64,000 bases of DNA, from the NCBI GenBank assembly GCA_021463865.1, contig JAJTXY010000001.1, forward strand, positions 310,001 through 374,000, given 5' to 3'. A program made the position numbers and the translations under genes. The notes under the pieces were generated by a model. That model did no database searches, had not been told where the DNA came from, and worked only from the letters and a program-made list of their open reading frames with translations. Shown here one piece after another: positions 16,178 through 54,497 of this stretch (position 1 is the first letter of the stretch; every line of letters begins with the position of its first letter). Source of the stretch: Anaerolineae bacterium (GTDB taxonomy: Bacteria; Chloroflexota; Anaerolineae; Aggregatilineales; J027).

Positions 16178-16435
16178 GTGGCGGATTTGATTGATATGCT
16201 GGCTACGATTCTTTCGTTAATCCTGTTCGGGCGTATTATTGTGAGTGGGATGGTCGCTTTGGGACGATTAAGCCCTTATAGCCCAATAGCCAAAACTCTT
16301 TTTGATCTTACCGAGCCGTTTTTAGCGCCGATTCGTAATCTACTGCCCCAGACTGCCGGGTTCGATCTCAGTCCACTTATCGCATTTATCATAATTCAAA
16401 TTGTAAGGACGCTGTTGATCCAAATGGTGGCATAG
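16178..16435 (+). CDS. yggT: YggT family membrane protein
   Basis: This small two-helix membrane protein (85 residues from GTG 16178) has MLATILSLILFGRIIVSGM, then LFDLTEPFLAPIRNLLP. The second segment is the diagnostic YggT motif with its conserved Pro and Arg. A second hydrophobic helix follows. An earlier in-frame GTG at 16169 is only 1 base from TAAGGAG (16161-16167), whereas 16178 is 10 bases away, so the later start is preferred. YggT proteins are linked to osmotic or cell-division functions, but their biochemical role is not known. Confidence 0.85.
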   Translation: MADLIDMLATILSLILFGRIIVSGMVALGRLSPYSPIAKTLFDLTEPFLAPIRNLLPQTAGFDLSPLIAFIIIQIVRTLLIQMVA

Positions 16436-48558: not shown

Positions 48559-48663
48559 AAATTGCCCATGACAAATTTTGGCTAACCGGGTATTATGTGG
48601 CCCATCGTAGCCAAAAAGATGAAAGGAAGGCCATCGAGCGAAAAATAGATCAAGGGGATAATA
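48559..48663. other. Leader upstream of the glmS ribozyme
   Basis: About 100 bases with no gene. The glmS transcript probably starts here, but no strong -35/-10 pair was recognised. Confidence 0.4.
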
Positions 48664-48890
48664 GCGCATGGCCTGTGCGTAAACTTCACTTCACAGGTGA
48701 CGAGGTAACGGTTCCTGCCGAGGGGCAGTGCTAACCCTGTAACAAGGGGAAAATCGAGGTTTCAGCGGATGCCGTTCGGGGTAAATCATCACTACTCCGG
48801 TTACTCCCCACACAACAAGCAGGTTTTTTCATAAACCCCACTGGTAACAGCGGGACAACTCCGCCTGCCGTGATGAGGCTCTGAGCATAT
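48664..48890 (+). ncRNA. glmS ribozyme (GlcN6P-responsive self-cleaving RNA)
   Basis: The RNA leading into glmS matches the glmS ribozyme core. The cleavage-site context A/GCGC is at 48663/48664. GGTGACGAGGT at about 48696-48706 corresponds to the conserved GUUGACGAGGA. AATCGAGGTTTCAGCGGATGCC at about 48753-48774 corresponds to the conserved AUCGAAU(U)...GGCGGAUGCC. GTAACAAGGGG and later Pro-domain-like helices follow. Glucosamine-6-phosphate is the known cofactor for cleavage, which lowers glmS mRNA. The 3' boundary is approximate. The downstream gene being glmS makes the assignment strong. Confidence 0.88.
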
Positions 48891-48956
48891 TCGCTCGGAG
48901 AGCATATCTATTTGCATTGTTGCGTTCCTCAAAATCAAATAGGAGGCTATCAGGCC

Positions 48957-50801
48957 ATGTGTGGAATCGTTGGTTACGTCGGTGGGCGTGATGCTGCGCC
49001 GATCATCCTAAACGGCCTGCAATTGTTGGAATATCGCGGTTATGACTCCGCTGGTATCGCCATTTTAGAATCAAACGGTCAAATCCAAGTCCGGCGTCAG
49101 GTCGGCAAATTGGGCAATCTGCGCCACGAAGTTGAACTCGCCCCTGTCAAAGGGTCGCTGGGTATCGGGCATACCCGTTGGGCAACACACGGCGCACCCA
49201 GTCAGCGCAATGCCCATCCCCACACCAGCATGGACGGCGCAACCGTTGTCGTCCATAACGGCATCGTGGAAAATTTTCTATCCCTGCGTGCCGAGTTGGA
49301 AGCGGAGGGCGTTGTTTTTGCCTCCGATACCGATACCGAAGTCATTGTGCATCTGGTTGAGCGTTATCTATCCGCTGGCAAGGACATCACCGTTGCCACC
49401 CAACTTGCCGTACAGCATTTATGTGGGGCGCACGCCATCGTCATTATGAGCGCCCATTTCCCCGGTCAATTGGTCGTGGCACGCATTGGCAATGCGGGTG
49501 GGGTGGCGATTGGCTTGGGTGAAAATGAAATGTTCATCGCCTCCGACATCCCCGCTATTTTGGAACATACCCGCCGCATGGTCTTTCTGGAAAGTCGGCA
49601 GATGGCAACTGTCACCTCCGAGGGTTACACCGTCCAAACGATTGATGGTGTACCCATCCAAGCAGTAGTACATGATGTCCCCTATGACCCTATCAGCGCC
49701 GCCAAAGGGGAATATCGCCATTTCATGCAAAAGGAAATCCACGAACAGGCCCGTGCTATTACCGATACCATCGGCGGACGGGTAGATTTTAAGACGGGTG
49801 AAGTCTTCCTGCCTGATTTACCCCTTACCGCTAACGAAGCCAAATCACTGCAACGGCTGATTACTGTGGCGTGTGGCACAAGCTACTATTCTGGCCTGAT
49901 CGGGAAATTTGCCATCGAAAAATTGGCCCGTCTGCCCGTTGAGGTAGATTATGGCAGTGAGTATCGTTATCGTGACCCGGTGTTGGATGAACACTGCACG
50001 ATGTTGGCGATTACCCAGAGCGGCGAAACAGTGGATACCCTTGCGGCGATGGAAGTGGCAAAGCACTATCGCATCCGTCTGTGGAGCATCGTGAATGCGC
50101 TTGGCAGCCAAGCTATGCGGGTTGCGGACGGCTATATTACTATGCAGACCGGCCCAGAAATCGGGGTGGCCTCAACCAAAGCCTTTACCGCCAGTGTGGT
50201 AGACCAGATTTTGCTGGCCCTCTATCTTGGCTATCTGCGCGGCACACTAACCGAAAAAGACATGATTGCTCATACCGCCGACCTTGCCACCTTGCCAGAT
50301 TTGGTAGGGCGCGTATTGAGCAATGAACACCACATTGAGCAACTGGCCGGACGCCTCTATCACTACGAGGATTTTTTGTATCTGGGGCGCGGGATTAATT
50401 ATCCTGTTGCGCTCGAAGGGGCATTGAAGCTGAAAGAAATCAGCTATATCCATGCTGAGGGCTATCCGGCGGGTGAGATGAAACACGGGCCGATTGCGCT
50501 GATTGATGAAAATTTGCCTGTCGTGGTAGTTGCGCTGCAAGATGAGGTCTACGACAAGATGCTCAGTCAGATTGAGCAGGCCAAAGCACGCGGCGGCATC
50601 GTTATCGCCGTTGCGACGGAGGGCGATACCCTAATTGCTGAAAAAGCCGACCATGTGTTGTATGTCCCGCCTGTCTCGTGGTTATTGAGTCCGGTGGTAG
50701 CGGTCATTCCGCTGCAACTGCTAGCCTATCATATTGCGGTGCGGCGTGGGGCCGATGTTGACCAACCGCGTAATCTCGCCAAGAGTGTCACCGTCGAATA
50801 G
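48957..50801 (+). CDS. glmS: Glutamine-fructose-6-phosphate aminotransferase GlmS
   Basis: The 614-residue protein starts at ATG 48957, 10 bases after AGGAGG; the Cys2 nucleophile needs this start (MCGIVGYVGG). The glutaminase domain has YRGYDSAGIA, GHTRWATHGAP and VVHNGIVEN. Two SIS sugar-isomerase domains contain ITQSGETVDTLAAME and ACGTSYYSG, and the end is PRNLAKSVTVE. It converts fructose-6-phosphate and glutamine to glucosamine-6-phosphate, the first step of amino-sugar synthesis for peptidoglycan. Expression is probably under the upstream ribozyme. Confidence 0.98.
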   Translation: MCGIVGYVGGRDAAPIILNGLQLLEYRGYDSAGIAILESNGQIQVRRQVGKLGNLRHEVELAPVKGSLGIGHTRWATHGAPSQRNAHPHTSMDGATVVVHNGIVENFLSLRAELEAEGVVFASDTDTEVIVHLVERYLSAGKDITVATQLAVQHLCGAHAIVIMSAHFPGQLVVARIGNAGGVAIGLGENEMFIASDIPAILEHTRRMVFLESRQMATVTSEGYTVQTIDGVPIQAVVHDVPYDPISAAKGEYRHFMQKEIHEQARAITDTIGGRVDFKTGEVFLPDLPLTANEAKSLQRLITVACGTSYYSGLIGKFAIEKLARLPVEVDYGSEYRYRDPVLDEHCTMLAITQSGETVDTLAAMEVAKHYRIRLWSIVNALGSQAMRVADGYITMQTGPEIGVASTKAFTASVVDQILLALYLGYLRGTLTEKDMIAHTADLATLPDLVGRVLSNEHHIEQLAGRLYHYEDFLYLGRGINYPVALEGALKLKEISYIHAEGYPAGEMKHGPIALIDENLPVVVVALQDEVYDKMLSQIEQAKARGGIVIAVATEGDTLIAEKADHVLYVPPVSWLLSPVVAVIPLQLLAYHIAVRRGADVDQPRNLAKSVTVE

Positions 50802-51647: not shown

Positions 51648-52103
51648 TTACATGAGATGATGAATTTCCACTTCTGACCAGTACGAGGCCATATATTCAG
51701 CAACGAGACGGCGATGGCAATGGTCTGGTTCATGTTCGCTGCATAATAGACAAGTACGATGACTTTGCCACCATTGCCGATCTAATTGAGTGATTAAGTT
51801 GCGTTTTTCCAAGAGGGCCTTGAATGCGATTTCATATTGATCCCATGCTGCATCCTCCCGATATTGCTTCAGGAATGATTCTTCAGGAGCCATTTCCGGC
51901 ATATAGCGATAATCGCAGCCAATCAAATTTCGCAGCAAATAAGGGAGGTCGCGGCCTTTGGCAAAGCCACTGAGTTGGGAATCAGGTTTAAGGCGTGTAT
52001 CTACAAGAACTTGAATACTGTGATTCTTTAAAAGGCCAAAAAATTGTTCTGCCGTTTTTTGAGTAAATCCGATTGTGTAGAGATGAATTGGCTGCACGAT
52101 CAA
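51648..52103 (-). CDS. DUF488 family protein (paralogue 1, short)
   Basis: The 151-residue protein has LYTIGFTQKTAEQFFGLL, VLVDTRLKP and LCSEHEPDHCHRRLVAEY, which are DUF488 landmarks (IGxS, VD.R and the Cys-Glu...Pro..CHR motif). The fold and role are not established; the conserved Cys and His suggest metal or nucleotide chemistry. It overlaps the next DUF488 gene by 4 bases (ATGA-type). It is more divergent than paralogues 2 and 3. Confidence 0.8.
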   Translation of the reverse strand: MIVQPIHLYTIGFTQKTAEQFFGLLKNHSIQVLVDTRLKPDSQLSGFAKGRDLPYLLRNLIGCDYRYMPEMAPEESFLKQYREDAAWDQYEIAFKALLEKRNLITQLDRQWWQSHRTCLLCSEHEPDHCHRRLVAEYMASYWSEVEIHHLM

Positions 52104-52696
52104 AAAAGCCTCTCTTGGATAAACTCCTCTGGAAAATTTTCAGCGGTGATGGGTGTGAATTTGCCATCGCGCTCAATATGATAAACTATTATATCAATCT
52201 CATTATCTATGATTTTCAATTTGGGGTCAACCAGTGAACGGGTAATTAAATGATGGCGGTGGCATTCTAGGGGGTTGCCTTCACTGCACATAATCGTGAC
52301 ATTTCCACCCACTTCAGTCGCCTGACGCACAATGCTCAAAAGATGGGTGATCCCCTTTAGATATTTTTCATAGTGCATCATGGCTTTGTAGTCTACTTTT
52401 TTGAGGAAATCAGCCCGTTTTGTATCCTCATCAGGGAGTTCTTCGTCTTTATACAGTTCAGCTTCTTTGGGTCGCCCTCCTAAATATTCACCTGCATAGC
52501 GATATTGAATACCATGCTGTTCTAAAAATGCTTGGAGTTCAGATTTGTTGAACTGGGGCGCGAATTTGCTGTAGGGGGCGCTTCGTACATCTACCAATAC
52601 CGTGATATGGTAAGTTCGGAGCAAGGCTAAAAATTCTTCGGTAGTGTGGTTGCTATGACCGATGGTGTAGAGGGTGAGTTTTTTGGATTCACTCAT
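52100..52696 (-). CDS. DUF488 family protein (paralogue 2)
   Basis: The 198-residue protein starts LTLYTIGHSNHTTEEFLALL, continues with VLVDVRSAPYSKF and GGRPKEAELY, and contains TIMCSEGNPLECHRHHLITRSL. The C-terminal ~35 residues (LKIIDNEIDIIVYHIERDG) match paralogue 3 at 53982 closely. Start is ATG 52696. It forms an operon with paralogue 1 and the OB-like gene. Confidence 0.85.
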   Translation of the reverse strand: MSESKKLTLYTIGHSNHTTEEFLALLRTYHITVLVDVRSAPYSKFAPQFNKSELQAFLEQHGIQYRYAGEYLGGRPKEAELYKDEELPDEDTKRADFLKKVDYKAMMHYEKYLKGITHLLSIVRQATEVGGNVTIMCSEGNPLECHRHHLITRSLVDPKLKIIDNEIDIIVYHIERDGKFTPITAENFPEEFIQERLF

Positions 52697-52991
52697 GAGA
52701 TTAACCCTAAAAACTTAATGCTGTTCTCCCAGTGTAGCACAGAAATTCTAGGTTATACGACTTTTTGCATCCCCGAAAATCTGAAGTAAAGTAGAACGTA
52801 TCGTCTATAAAAAGACCGCCCCCAAGTGCGGAAACACTCAGGGGACTAAGCTGAATTCAGCAAAGGAGAATTTTAGCATGAATTGATTGCTAAAGGAATA
52901 TCTACCCATACCCGTTTTTTCGCTTATCCAAGCCATGCAAAAGGGGGGAGAGAAATCCCCCGTCTTATCCTATAAATAAGGAGCAATTACA
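52697..52991 (+). other. Structured leader of the BRO/DinD-like gene
   Basis: This 295-base gap holds several features. A CCCC-AGTG/CACT-GGGG hairpin (about 52812-52840) and a perfect 12-bp palindrome GCTGAATTCAGC (about 52851-52862) are present. AAGGAG (52863-52868) is followed by a two-codon frame, ATG AAT TGA (52878-52886). A GGGGG/CCCCC hairpin (52944-52961) precedes the ribosome binding site TAAGGAG of the gene. It could be a regulatory leader or attenuator. Confidence 0.4.
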
Positions 52992-53918
52992 ATGTCTCTC
53001 ATTGAACGGTATCTGAACAATGACCCTGAACTAGCCGAAATTCCATTGCCTGAGATTATTATTCAAAGTTTGGGTGGCAAGATGGATTATGTTGATCTGG
53101 AAGATGGACGACGGCTTTATGCAGTCCGAGATTGGGTACATGAGATTAAAAGATCAACCAATAAACAGCGTATAGCCCCATGGAAAGATTTAAAACGGAC
53201 GATTTTGGAACAGGGTGATTTTAAGGTGGGTGAAATTCTCACATACCTTGAGGTTGAGACACCCGGCGGCACATTTGAAATCGAATTTACAGATGCTGAA
53301 GGGTTATATGCGATAACGCAGCGCATGGCAGACCGTTCCCCAACAGTCCGTCAGGTTAAGGATTATCTCGCAAAAGCAGGCGTGTTCGTAGACGACCTCC
53401 GTACCGAACCGGAACAGCGCGATGAACTGATGGAGCGTCTCATTGCCGAAAATCCCGAACGGGCGATGGAAGCAATCGTGGCACGCTATCGGGCGCAAGG
53501 GAAATCGGATTTATGGATTGAGCGCCGCATTGTTGGGATGCAAAAACGCAACAAATTTACCTCTGCCCTGCGAGAAACATCCGCCAGTTCGCCCAATTAT
53601 GCCCAAGCGACCAATGCAGGTTATCAAGGCGCATTCAACATGATGAAAGACGAGATTGTGGCCTATCTAGGATTGACCAAACAGCAAGCCCGCCAATTAC
53701 GCGACCACATTTCGGAAATCGCCTTACAGGGCATCGCGCTTTATGAAACGGCCTCCGCCGAGAAAATGAAAATCATGAAACGTGCCTTAACCCCACTCGA
53801 ACAGGCCGAAATCGTGCGTACCTGTGCCCGCATCGTCGCCCCATCTATGAAGGCCCTTGCCGAATATGTAGGGGTGGATGTGCTGTCCGGTCAGCCGCTT
53901 CTAACCACTGGCGAATAA
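52992..53918 (+). CDS. BRO/DinD-like protein
   Basis: The 308-residue protein has an N-terminal domain (~1-125) with YAVRDWVHEIKRS and the conserved W..LKR motif, as in phage BRO/antirepressor proteins. The C-terminal helical part (~130-308) has KFTSALRETSA and AYLGLTKQQARQLRDHISE, similar to DNA-damage-inducible protein D. BRO-N domains bind DNA. A signature enzyme motif is absent. It lies amid DUF488 genes but on the opposite strand with its own leader. Exact function is unknown. Confidence 0.55.
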   Translation: MSLIERYLNNDPELAEIPLPEIIIQSLGGKMDYVDLEDGRRLYAVRDWVHEIKRSTNKQRIAPWKDLKRTILEQGDFKVGEILTYLEVETPGGTFEIEFTDAEGLYAITQRMADRSPTVRQVKDYLAKAGVFVDDLRTEPEQRDELMERLIAENPERAMEAIVARYRAQGKSDLWIERRIVGMQKRNKFTSALRETSASSPNYAQATNAGYQGAFNMMKDEIVAYLGLTKQQARQLRDHISEIALQGIALYETASAEKMKIMKRALTPLEQAEIVRTCARIVAPSMKALAEYVGVDVLSGQPLLTTGE

Positions 53919-53938
53919 AACCCCGATTATGAAACTCG

Positions 53939-53964
53939 ACCCGCTGAGATTTCGGCGGGTTTTT
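53939..53964 (+). terminator. Terminator of the BRO/DinD-like gene
   Basis: ACCCGC (53939-53944), a 10-base loop and GCGGGT (53955-53960) are followed by TTTTATTT. Confidence 0.7.
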
Positions 53965-53981
53965 ATTTACAACAAGGGTAG

Positions 53982-54497
53982 CTACCCTCCAAAATCCTCA
54001 GCCGAGATAGGGCGCAATTCACCATCCTTCAAAATATGCACAATCTCAAGGCTAATCTCATCCCCAACAATTTTCAATTGAGGGTCAAGCAGCGAACGGG
54101 CGATTAAATGATGGCGGTGACATTGATCCGGGTCGCCTTCACTGCACATAATCGCCATTCGGCCTGCGTTCGCCTCCACCTCTTGCAGCATAGCAAGCAA
54201 ATCTCGGATACCCGCTTGATACCATTCCTTCTGCATGACCAATCCAAAATCTACTTTGTCATTGGTATAAACACTGGAGTCTTTGGGCCTACCCCCCAGC
54301 GCCTCTCCACGAAAATGATAAGTCATGCCGTATTCGGGCAGGCTACTTTCGAGACGCTTCTTATTAAAATGCGGCGAAAATCGGCTTTGAGGGGCGCTGC
54401 GAATATCCACTAAATCCGTAATCGTGTGTTGTTTCAATAACCCCAAAAAATCATCAAGAGGGTGGTTGCTGTGACCGATGGTGTAAAGCGTGGTCAT
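53982..54497 (-). CDS. DUF488 family protein (paralogue 3)
   Basis: The 171-residue protein starts TTLYTIGHSNHPLDDFLGLL and has DLVDIRSAPQSRFSPHFN, GGRPKDSSVY and AIMCSEGDPDQCHRHHLIARSL. It is nearest to paralogue 2. Its ATG overlaps the stop of endonuclease III (nth) by 4 bases, so the two are translationally coupled. The coupling to a base-excision enzyme makes a nucleic-acid role plausible. Confidence 0.87.
   Translation of the reverse strand: MTTLYTIGHSNHPLDDFLGLLKQHTITDLVDIRSAPQSRFSPHFNKKRLESSLPEYGMTYHFRGEALGGRPKDSSVYTNDKVDFGLVMQKEWYQAGIRDLLAMLQEVEANAGRMAIMCSEGDPDQCHRHHLIARSLLDPQLKIVGDEISLEIVHILKDGELRPISAEDFGG

Follow-up and report, generated by a model that had tools for sequence, protein, structure and literature searches.

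A divergent, Anaerolineae-type glmS ribozyme in a Chloroflexota genome, with a probable new helix between its leader and the P3-P4 linker

The glmS ribozyme is commonly seen as a one-gene switch of near-uniform structure. Here we ask whether the leader of a glmS gene within 64,000 nucleotides of Chloroflexota DNA (the window) holds such a ribozyme, given that a default Rfam scan of the window reports nothing, and, if it does, how far it departs from the known form. The gene itself, at 48957..50801 (+ strand, as are all coordinates below unless stated), matches TIGR01135, glutamine--fructose-6-phosphate transaminase (isomerizing), with 761.8 bits for a cut-off of 418, and GGAGG at 48942..48946 is its likely ribosome-binding site. 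Searched directly, RF00234 aligns at 48652-48878 over model positions 1-167 of 167 with 28.8 bits (E 6e-5), below the Rfam gathering threshold of 37 bits, which is a curation threshold and no biological feature. The original prediction had proposed this search as its check, and the poor score against which it warned was literally obtained; it is outweighed by anatomy, covariation and gene context. Because the RF00234 score is weak, we examined the anatomy of the element and its relatives rather than the score.

We found that the A|GCGC cleavage-site motif and the invariant core strings ACGAGG, AUCGA and GCGGAUG are all present, with GCGC at 48664, TGACGAGG at 48698-48705, AAATCGA at 48751-48757 and GCGGATGCC at 48765-48773. 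The element is the sole match in its genome in the model search, and it lies in the leader of glmS, which begins 80 nt downstream. A core model built from 44 class sequences, the window's among them, scores it at 101.7 bits. The minimum free energy of the stretch alone does not stand out from shuffles (z -0.94), the folding method being blind to pseudoknots. Covariation, the class model and the gene context rule out a chance match. Separately, a collection scan for TGACGAGG-N35-65-GCGGATGCC returned mostly chance loci, just 2 of the 119 matching the class model. We conclude, with a probability of roughly 0.92, that a glmS ribozyme occupies 48652-48878 (+), that it belongs to a divergent variant at class level (Anaerolineae-type), and that it is predicted to cleave itself. 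The claim that the glmS leader contains this ribozyme thus holds, with the core motifs where they had been placed, as does that of a Chloroflexota genome; the class is probably Anaerolineae, judging by named class-model matches (Bellilinea sp. KatS3mg047, L123; Anaerolineales bacterium SMBSF12, L071).

All known parts of the glmS ribozyme can be assigned, namely P1, P2, P2.1, P2.2, P3, P3.1 and P4 with its internal loop and a GNRA tetraloop, and they match those of the Bacillus and Tte ribozymes as set out in passages of PMC11602151 and PMC7125110. The predicted cleavage site A|G at 48663..48664, placed by the RF00234 alignment, corresponds to A-1|G1 of the known ribozymes as those passages give it. 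Downstream of it, the P2.2 5′ strand (48665..48669) pairs with 48764-48767, with A48668 bulged and U48669 paired to A48764; the P1 hairpin (48671..48698) pairs 48671-48677 with 48692-48698; the P2.1 5′ strand CGA (48701..48703) pairs with UCG at 48754-48756; and the P2 5′ strand AACGG (48707..48711) pairs with CCGUU at 48772-48776. The core 3′ segment at 48754..48776, comprising the P2.1 UCG, the P2.2 3′ strand, GCGGAUG and the P2 3′ strand, is identified by RF00234, the class model and covariation alike. The P3 hairpin CGGGGUA/UACUCCG (48777..48799, also predicted by folding) carries in its loop L3 the P3.1 5′ strand UCAUCAC (48786..48792), which pairs with GUGAUGA at 48870-48876. The P4 domain (48819..48868) is formed by GCAGG/CCUGC, an A-rich internal loop and an upper stem at 48837-48854 closed by a GUAA tetraloop. 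P3, P3.1 and P4 were read from the sequence, consistent with the RF00234 alignment, and P3 and P4 lie outside the covariation count. The element thus ends at 48876 with the P3.1 strand; its start lies about 10 nt ahead of the 48664 given in the original prediction, at the strand of a further helix, P0 (from 48654), to which we return below.

Covariation was assessed in alignment A2 of 44 class sequences over the helices P1, P2, P2.1, P2.2 and the first of two inserted hairpins. Across these five helices 94.9% of cells are paired, compared with 77.1% after shuffling and 30-45% when the structure is slid, the covariation score is 0.506 (0.178 shuffled), and double changes are seen in 16 of the 24 pairs. 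By helix, the paired cells amount to 93.2% for P2.2, 89.3% for P1 (double changes in 6 of 7 pairs), 97.6% for P2.1 and 100% for P2 (double changes in 3 of 5 pairs), so that the double pseudoknot is found as expected. P2.1 is nearly invariant and is therefore neither supported nor contradicted by covariation. The P2.2 pairing varies: 21 of the 44 sequences can form solely 6-53, 3 solely 5-53, 15 either and 5 neither. Position 5 is unpaired in the window, as in most relatives, and we counted this against the main reading; the variation fits a mutational result, reported in a passage of PMC7125110, that a shifted P2.2 bulge can be tolerated.

In the window, the P2 5′ strand is also followed by two extra hairpins, which lie ahead of the P2.1 3′ strand and are absent from the Rfam model. 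Hairpin 1, CUGCC/GGCAG at 48715..48728, shows double changes in all 5 of its pairs, and hairpin 2, CCCU/AGGG at 48735..48748, is predicted in class sequences and in the window fold. Among 176 class sequences, two hairpins are predicted in 141, one in 13, three in 5, five in 1 and none in 1, with 15 unparsed, while 52 sequences of other Chloroflexota classes comprise 28 without an insert, 9 with two hairpins, 1 with three and 14 unparsed. Plausibly, the inserts account for the shortfall of the window in the RF00234 score. The long peripheral helices noted in the original prediction are not the sole cause of the divergence: the core contains the two additional hairpins, and the helix between leader and P3-P4 linker is unmodelled. 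The RNAalifold consensus used for our class model R1 lacked hairpin 2 and contained a doubtful helix of 2 bp; R1 was kept since it draws its score mostly from the conserved core.

How might this element act? The most likely mechanism is self-cleavage dependent on glucosamine-6-phosphate (GlcN6P) and followed by mRNA decay, as judged from the anatomy, the covariation, the gene context and the genome's RNase J gene (TIGR00649, 587.6 bits). Plentiful GlcN6P would bind the preformed core and serve as cofactor for the cut at A48663|G48664, and the glmS-bearing 5′-OH fragment would then be degraded, as in Bacillus subtilis, where, according to passages of PMC3997798, cleavage is set off by GlcN6P and the 5′-OH fragment is broken down by RNase J1. 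P0 may fasten the RNA 5′ of the scissile bond to the ribozyme, aid core folding and possibly tether the upstream product. We found no terminator between the ribozyme and glmS in the window. Further upstream, a sigma-70-like promoter, ATGACA-17-TATTAT at 48568..48596, lies 67-95 nt before the predicted cut with 10 of 12 consensus matches; one such site was found where 0.7 are expected in shuffles, which makes it weak alone.

Between this candidate promoter and the ribozyme, at 48622..48630, lies a Shine-Dalgarno-like AAAGGAAGG without a conserved start codon. GGAGG without a gene start is enriched here in class leaders, occurring in 89 of 178 (shuffled mean 13.4, maximum 23), and is found in 25 of 54 leaders of other classes (shuffled mean 8.1). 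According to a passage of PMC3997798, Bacillus mRNAs are stabilised by a strong Shine-Dalgarno sequence that has no start codon, and the leader could accordingly be a ribosome-bound 5′ stabiliser, cleavage silencing glmS chiefly by removing this guard. This reading, which would complement the main explanation, seems to us rather doubtful: the window has just AAAGGAAGG, the AUG-stop minimal frame of some families hints at a translational role, and the guard would stay attached after cleavage through P0 unless P0 melts. A translated upstream peptide at the Shine-Dalgarno element was rejected, as the start codon is by eye unconserved in the window's genus. Families in which the leader GGAGG is followed by AUG-stop include those of G462, G463, G526 and G574.

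In the P0 helix the partners are the leader 5′ of the cut and the P3-P4 linker; RF00234 has its first positions unpaired. In the window, the 5′ strand GGGGAUAAU (48654..48662) and the 3′ strand GUUA-C-UCCCC (48800..48809) form nine pairs with one bulged C, and GGGGA/UCCCC appears in both the MFE and the centroid folds. Across genomes, the G-rich leader strings and the pyrimidine-rich linker strings change together, as in GAGAGUAU/AUACUCUC in G007 and GGGCACAAC/GUUGCUGCCC in G008. We tested this pairing with permutations of duplex energies, setting the value for a leader and the linker of the same genome beside those for linkers from elsewhere. The design was alignment-free, since the MAFFT alignment A1 puts the linker in the wrong place in some ten rows. 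Within the order of the window (n=34), the duplex energy was -13.50 kcal/mol with the own linker and -11.27 kcal/mol with other linkers, a difference reached in 0 of 20000 permutations. The same count, 0 of 20000, was obtained for the remaining orders of the class (n=32), and no signal was found in other classes (n=45; 15616 of 20000 permutations). This first test left out G001-G004 (same genus) and G013 (long P3) and had the core of G018 misplaced, which is correct in a test of 13 families. There, with one sequence drawn from each family, p<0.05 was obtained in 200 of 200 draws. In a larger set, restricted to sequences with a located core and linker and inserts of no more than 200 nt, the signal was present with one sequence per genus (n=110, z -10.3, 0 of 5000 permutations) and with one per family (n=42, z -5.6, 0 of 5000), and was absent in other classes (n=37, z 0.1).

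Next we considered whether P0 is no ribozyme helix at all, reflecting instead a composition match of G-rich leader and C-rich linker, or separate roles of each strand, such as a CCUCC-like linker that masks a Shine-Dalgarno sequence. Anti-Shine-Dalgarno strings do occur in many linkers, and since the mirrored linker gives a weak signal in the genus set (z -3.2), part of the genus-level signal is composition. That part is small and most of the signal is pairing: the mirror is weaker than the real linker and at family level drops to z -1.3 next to -5.6 for the real one, the control segments of the genus set are near zero (downstream segment z 0.0, insert z 1.1, farther leader z 0.1), as are other classes, and across the 13 families 4 to 6 standard pair types occur at every leader position from -12 to -3. 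Composition as the cause of P0 is hence rejected beyond a partial effect at genus level, and an artefactual helix appears improbable overall.

P0 is probably new. Three relatives (G342, G363b, G452) have the glmS start codon about 60-80 nt past the core, which is too short for P4, and by eye keep P0, suggesting that P0 may replace the peripheral P4 domain there. At L213, L214 (2480-2648) and L224 we noticed glmS ribozymes seemingly lacking P4, with a start codon soon after P3 and P0. A class whose leader pairs back onto the ribozyme, with some glmS copies keeping P0 without P4, provides a natural test of what the periphery does. If P0 does hold the upstream product, this may allow cleavage to be reversed or may link it to a refolding of the leader further downstream.

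We then examined how widespread this variant is. At E<=1e-3, RF00234 matches 35 of 61 relatives, 14 genomes being above the cut-off, and 128 of 400 genomes in the phylum (111 above the cut-off), so glmS ribozymes are ordinary in Chloroflexota and presence alone is no news. The class model R1, trained on 44 sequences that include the window and part of the relatives, matches 42 of the 61 relatives and 177 of 298 class genomes. Thus the Rfam threshold misses most class copies, 14 of the 61 relatives passing it compared with 42 found by R1, and the expectation that the variant widens the known sequence range is borne out by its sub-threshold score. Sub-threshold scores, in the window and in all four further searched members of its genus, could also mark a degenerate, non-cleaving ribozyme kept as a structured 5′ leader, which we consider very improbable given that nothing is lost from the core motifs, IL4, the GNRA loop or P3.1, that the core is near-identical across five genomes of the genus and that compensating changes keep the helices across families. 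Two individual loci deserve mention. L026 (G005) has U for A at -1 and changed letters beside or in P2.1 (CACGAGG, AAAAGCGA), and is possibly a weakened or altered ribozyme; L301 and L308 (G655:C50:16394-16504 and 16190-16295) are two class-model matches some 100 nt from each other upstream of a single glmS, and represent either a tandem or one split match.

The gene context in relatives was read in several sets of places, which overlap in genomes and were chosen from match lists, so that the numbers are counts of loci read and no frequencies. Of 39 places matched by RF00234 in the 61 relatives, 35 have glmS next and 4 (G009, G011, G034, G039) a split glutamate synthase, consisting of an FMN-binding GltB-like protein (PF01645, 352.8 bits) followed by a glutamine amidotransferase-like protein (PF13522, 31.0 bits) as assigned by family searches of 4 proteins. 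A set of 91 places gave glmS in 84, glnA in 5, a contig end in 1 (G400) and an amino-sugar transaminase in 1 (G071), the latter continued by an oxidoreductase and a long protein that we take to be MurF-like. In a third set, glmS follows in 26 of 40 places, glnA in 1, split glutamate synthase in 1 (G153) and other genes in 12: nine ada-like genes, a transaminase (G501), a YvcK-GlmM fusion (G655) and a presumed FAD-linked oxidase operon (G484) that also contains GltB-like segments. In eight of the nine ada-like cases a presumably EamA-type transporter and glnA come next, and in G076 the contig ends. A set of 78 places contains glmS in 72, a gene with presumed GTPase motifs and then glmS in 3, a transaminase in 2 and glnA in 1 (G129); this last (L334) is the sole class-model match of that class genome. 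The labels GTPase, FAD-linked oxidase, EamA and MurF are tentative assignments from sequence motifs. Second copies in relatives stand directly before glnA (8), before ada-eamA-glnA operons (8), split glutamate synthase (5), amino-sugar transaminase operons (4) and a yvcK-glmM fusion (1), and Bellilinea has two copies, one before glmS and one before glnA. Elsewhere in the window, on the - strand at 51648-54497, three similar open frames (51648-52103, 52100-52696, 53982-54497) start with YTIG, share a CSE..P..CHR motif and form a small family of repeated genes.

A survey by McCown et al. in 2011 reportedly placed all but two of 463 glmS ribozymes before glmS. Our full-text search of the literature found no title or abstract opening that describes the ribozyme with glutamine or glutamate synthesis genes, and its recruitment to these genes is probably new. 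Among 18 glnA-type copies, the cut-site string is GCGGCU in 16 and GCGACU in 2, while glmS copies mostly have GCGCAU or GCGCC. P2.2 is rearranged with it: opposite CAGCGG, it gives C5-G54 and U6-A53 with a purine bulge at position 4. Since ACGAGG, the P2.1 UCG and GCGG are kept, GlcN6P is the expected ligand of these copies as well. The P0 signal is weaker among glnA-type copies alone (n=14, z -2.3, 68 of 5000 permutations). In four of the glnA leaders (L123, L071, L286, L299) we observed GGAAGGG downstream of the ribozyme, complementary to a linker CCCUUCC that overlaps the P0 strand, followed before the gene by a terminator-like hairpin, a possible attenuator coupled to the ribozyme.

Taken together, we tentatively propose, as a possibility that falls short of probable, a GlcN6P-sensing regulon in Anaerolineae that includes glutamine supply and amino-sugar steps, with a glnA lineage that could be altered in kinetics or ligand preference and with P0 retaining the product. 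Under this proposal, glutamine synthetase and glutamate synthase would represent the glutamine supply of GlmS, later amino-sugar steps of the cell wall would be included, and the copies before the two synthases would make GlcN6P a nitrogen-assimilation signal read by a catalytic RNA.

Compared with the RF00234 ribozyme of Bacillus subtilis and Thermoanaerobacter tengcongensis, the window ribozyme shares the core double pseudoknot P2/P2.1/P2.2, P1, P3, P3.1, a P4 carrying a purine-rich internal loop and a GNRA loop, and the position before glmS, and differs in the two hairpins inserted between P2 and P2.1, the P0 helix and a score under the gathering cut-off. Variants of Deinococcus-Thermus, reportedly described by McCown et al. 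in 2011, are said to resemble it in having extra core stems. Copies in other Chloroflexota classes (for example G435, G395, G183) share the phylum, the downstream glmS and the core; unlike the class of the window, they give no P0 signal and more than half of the sequences (28 of 52) have no insert. The glnA-type copies (Bellilinea L123, G169, G217 and others) resemble the window ribozyme in matching the class model, in P3, P3.1 and P4 and usually in P0, and differ from it in standing before glnA operons and in the shift of the purine bulge to position 4.
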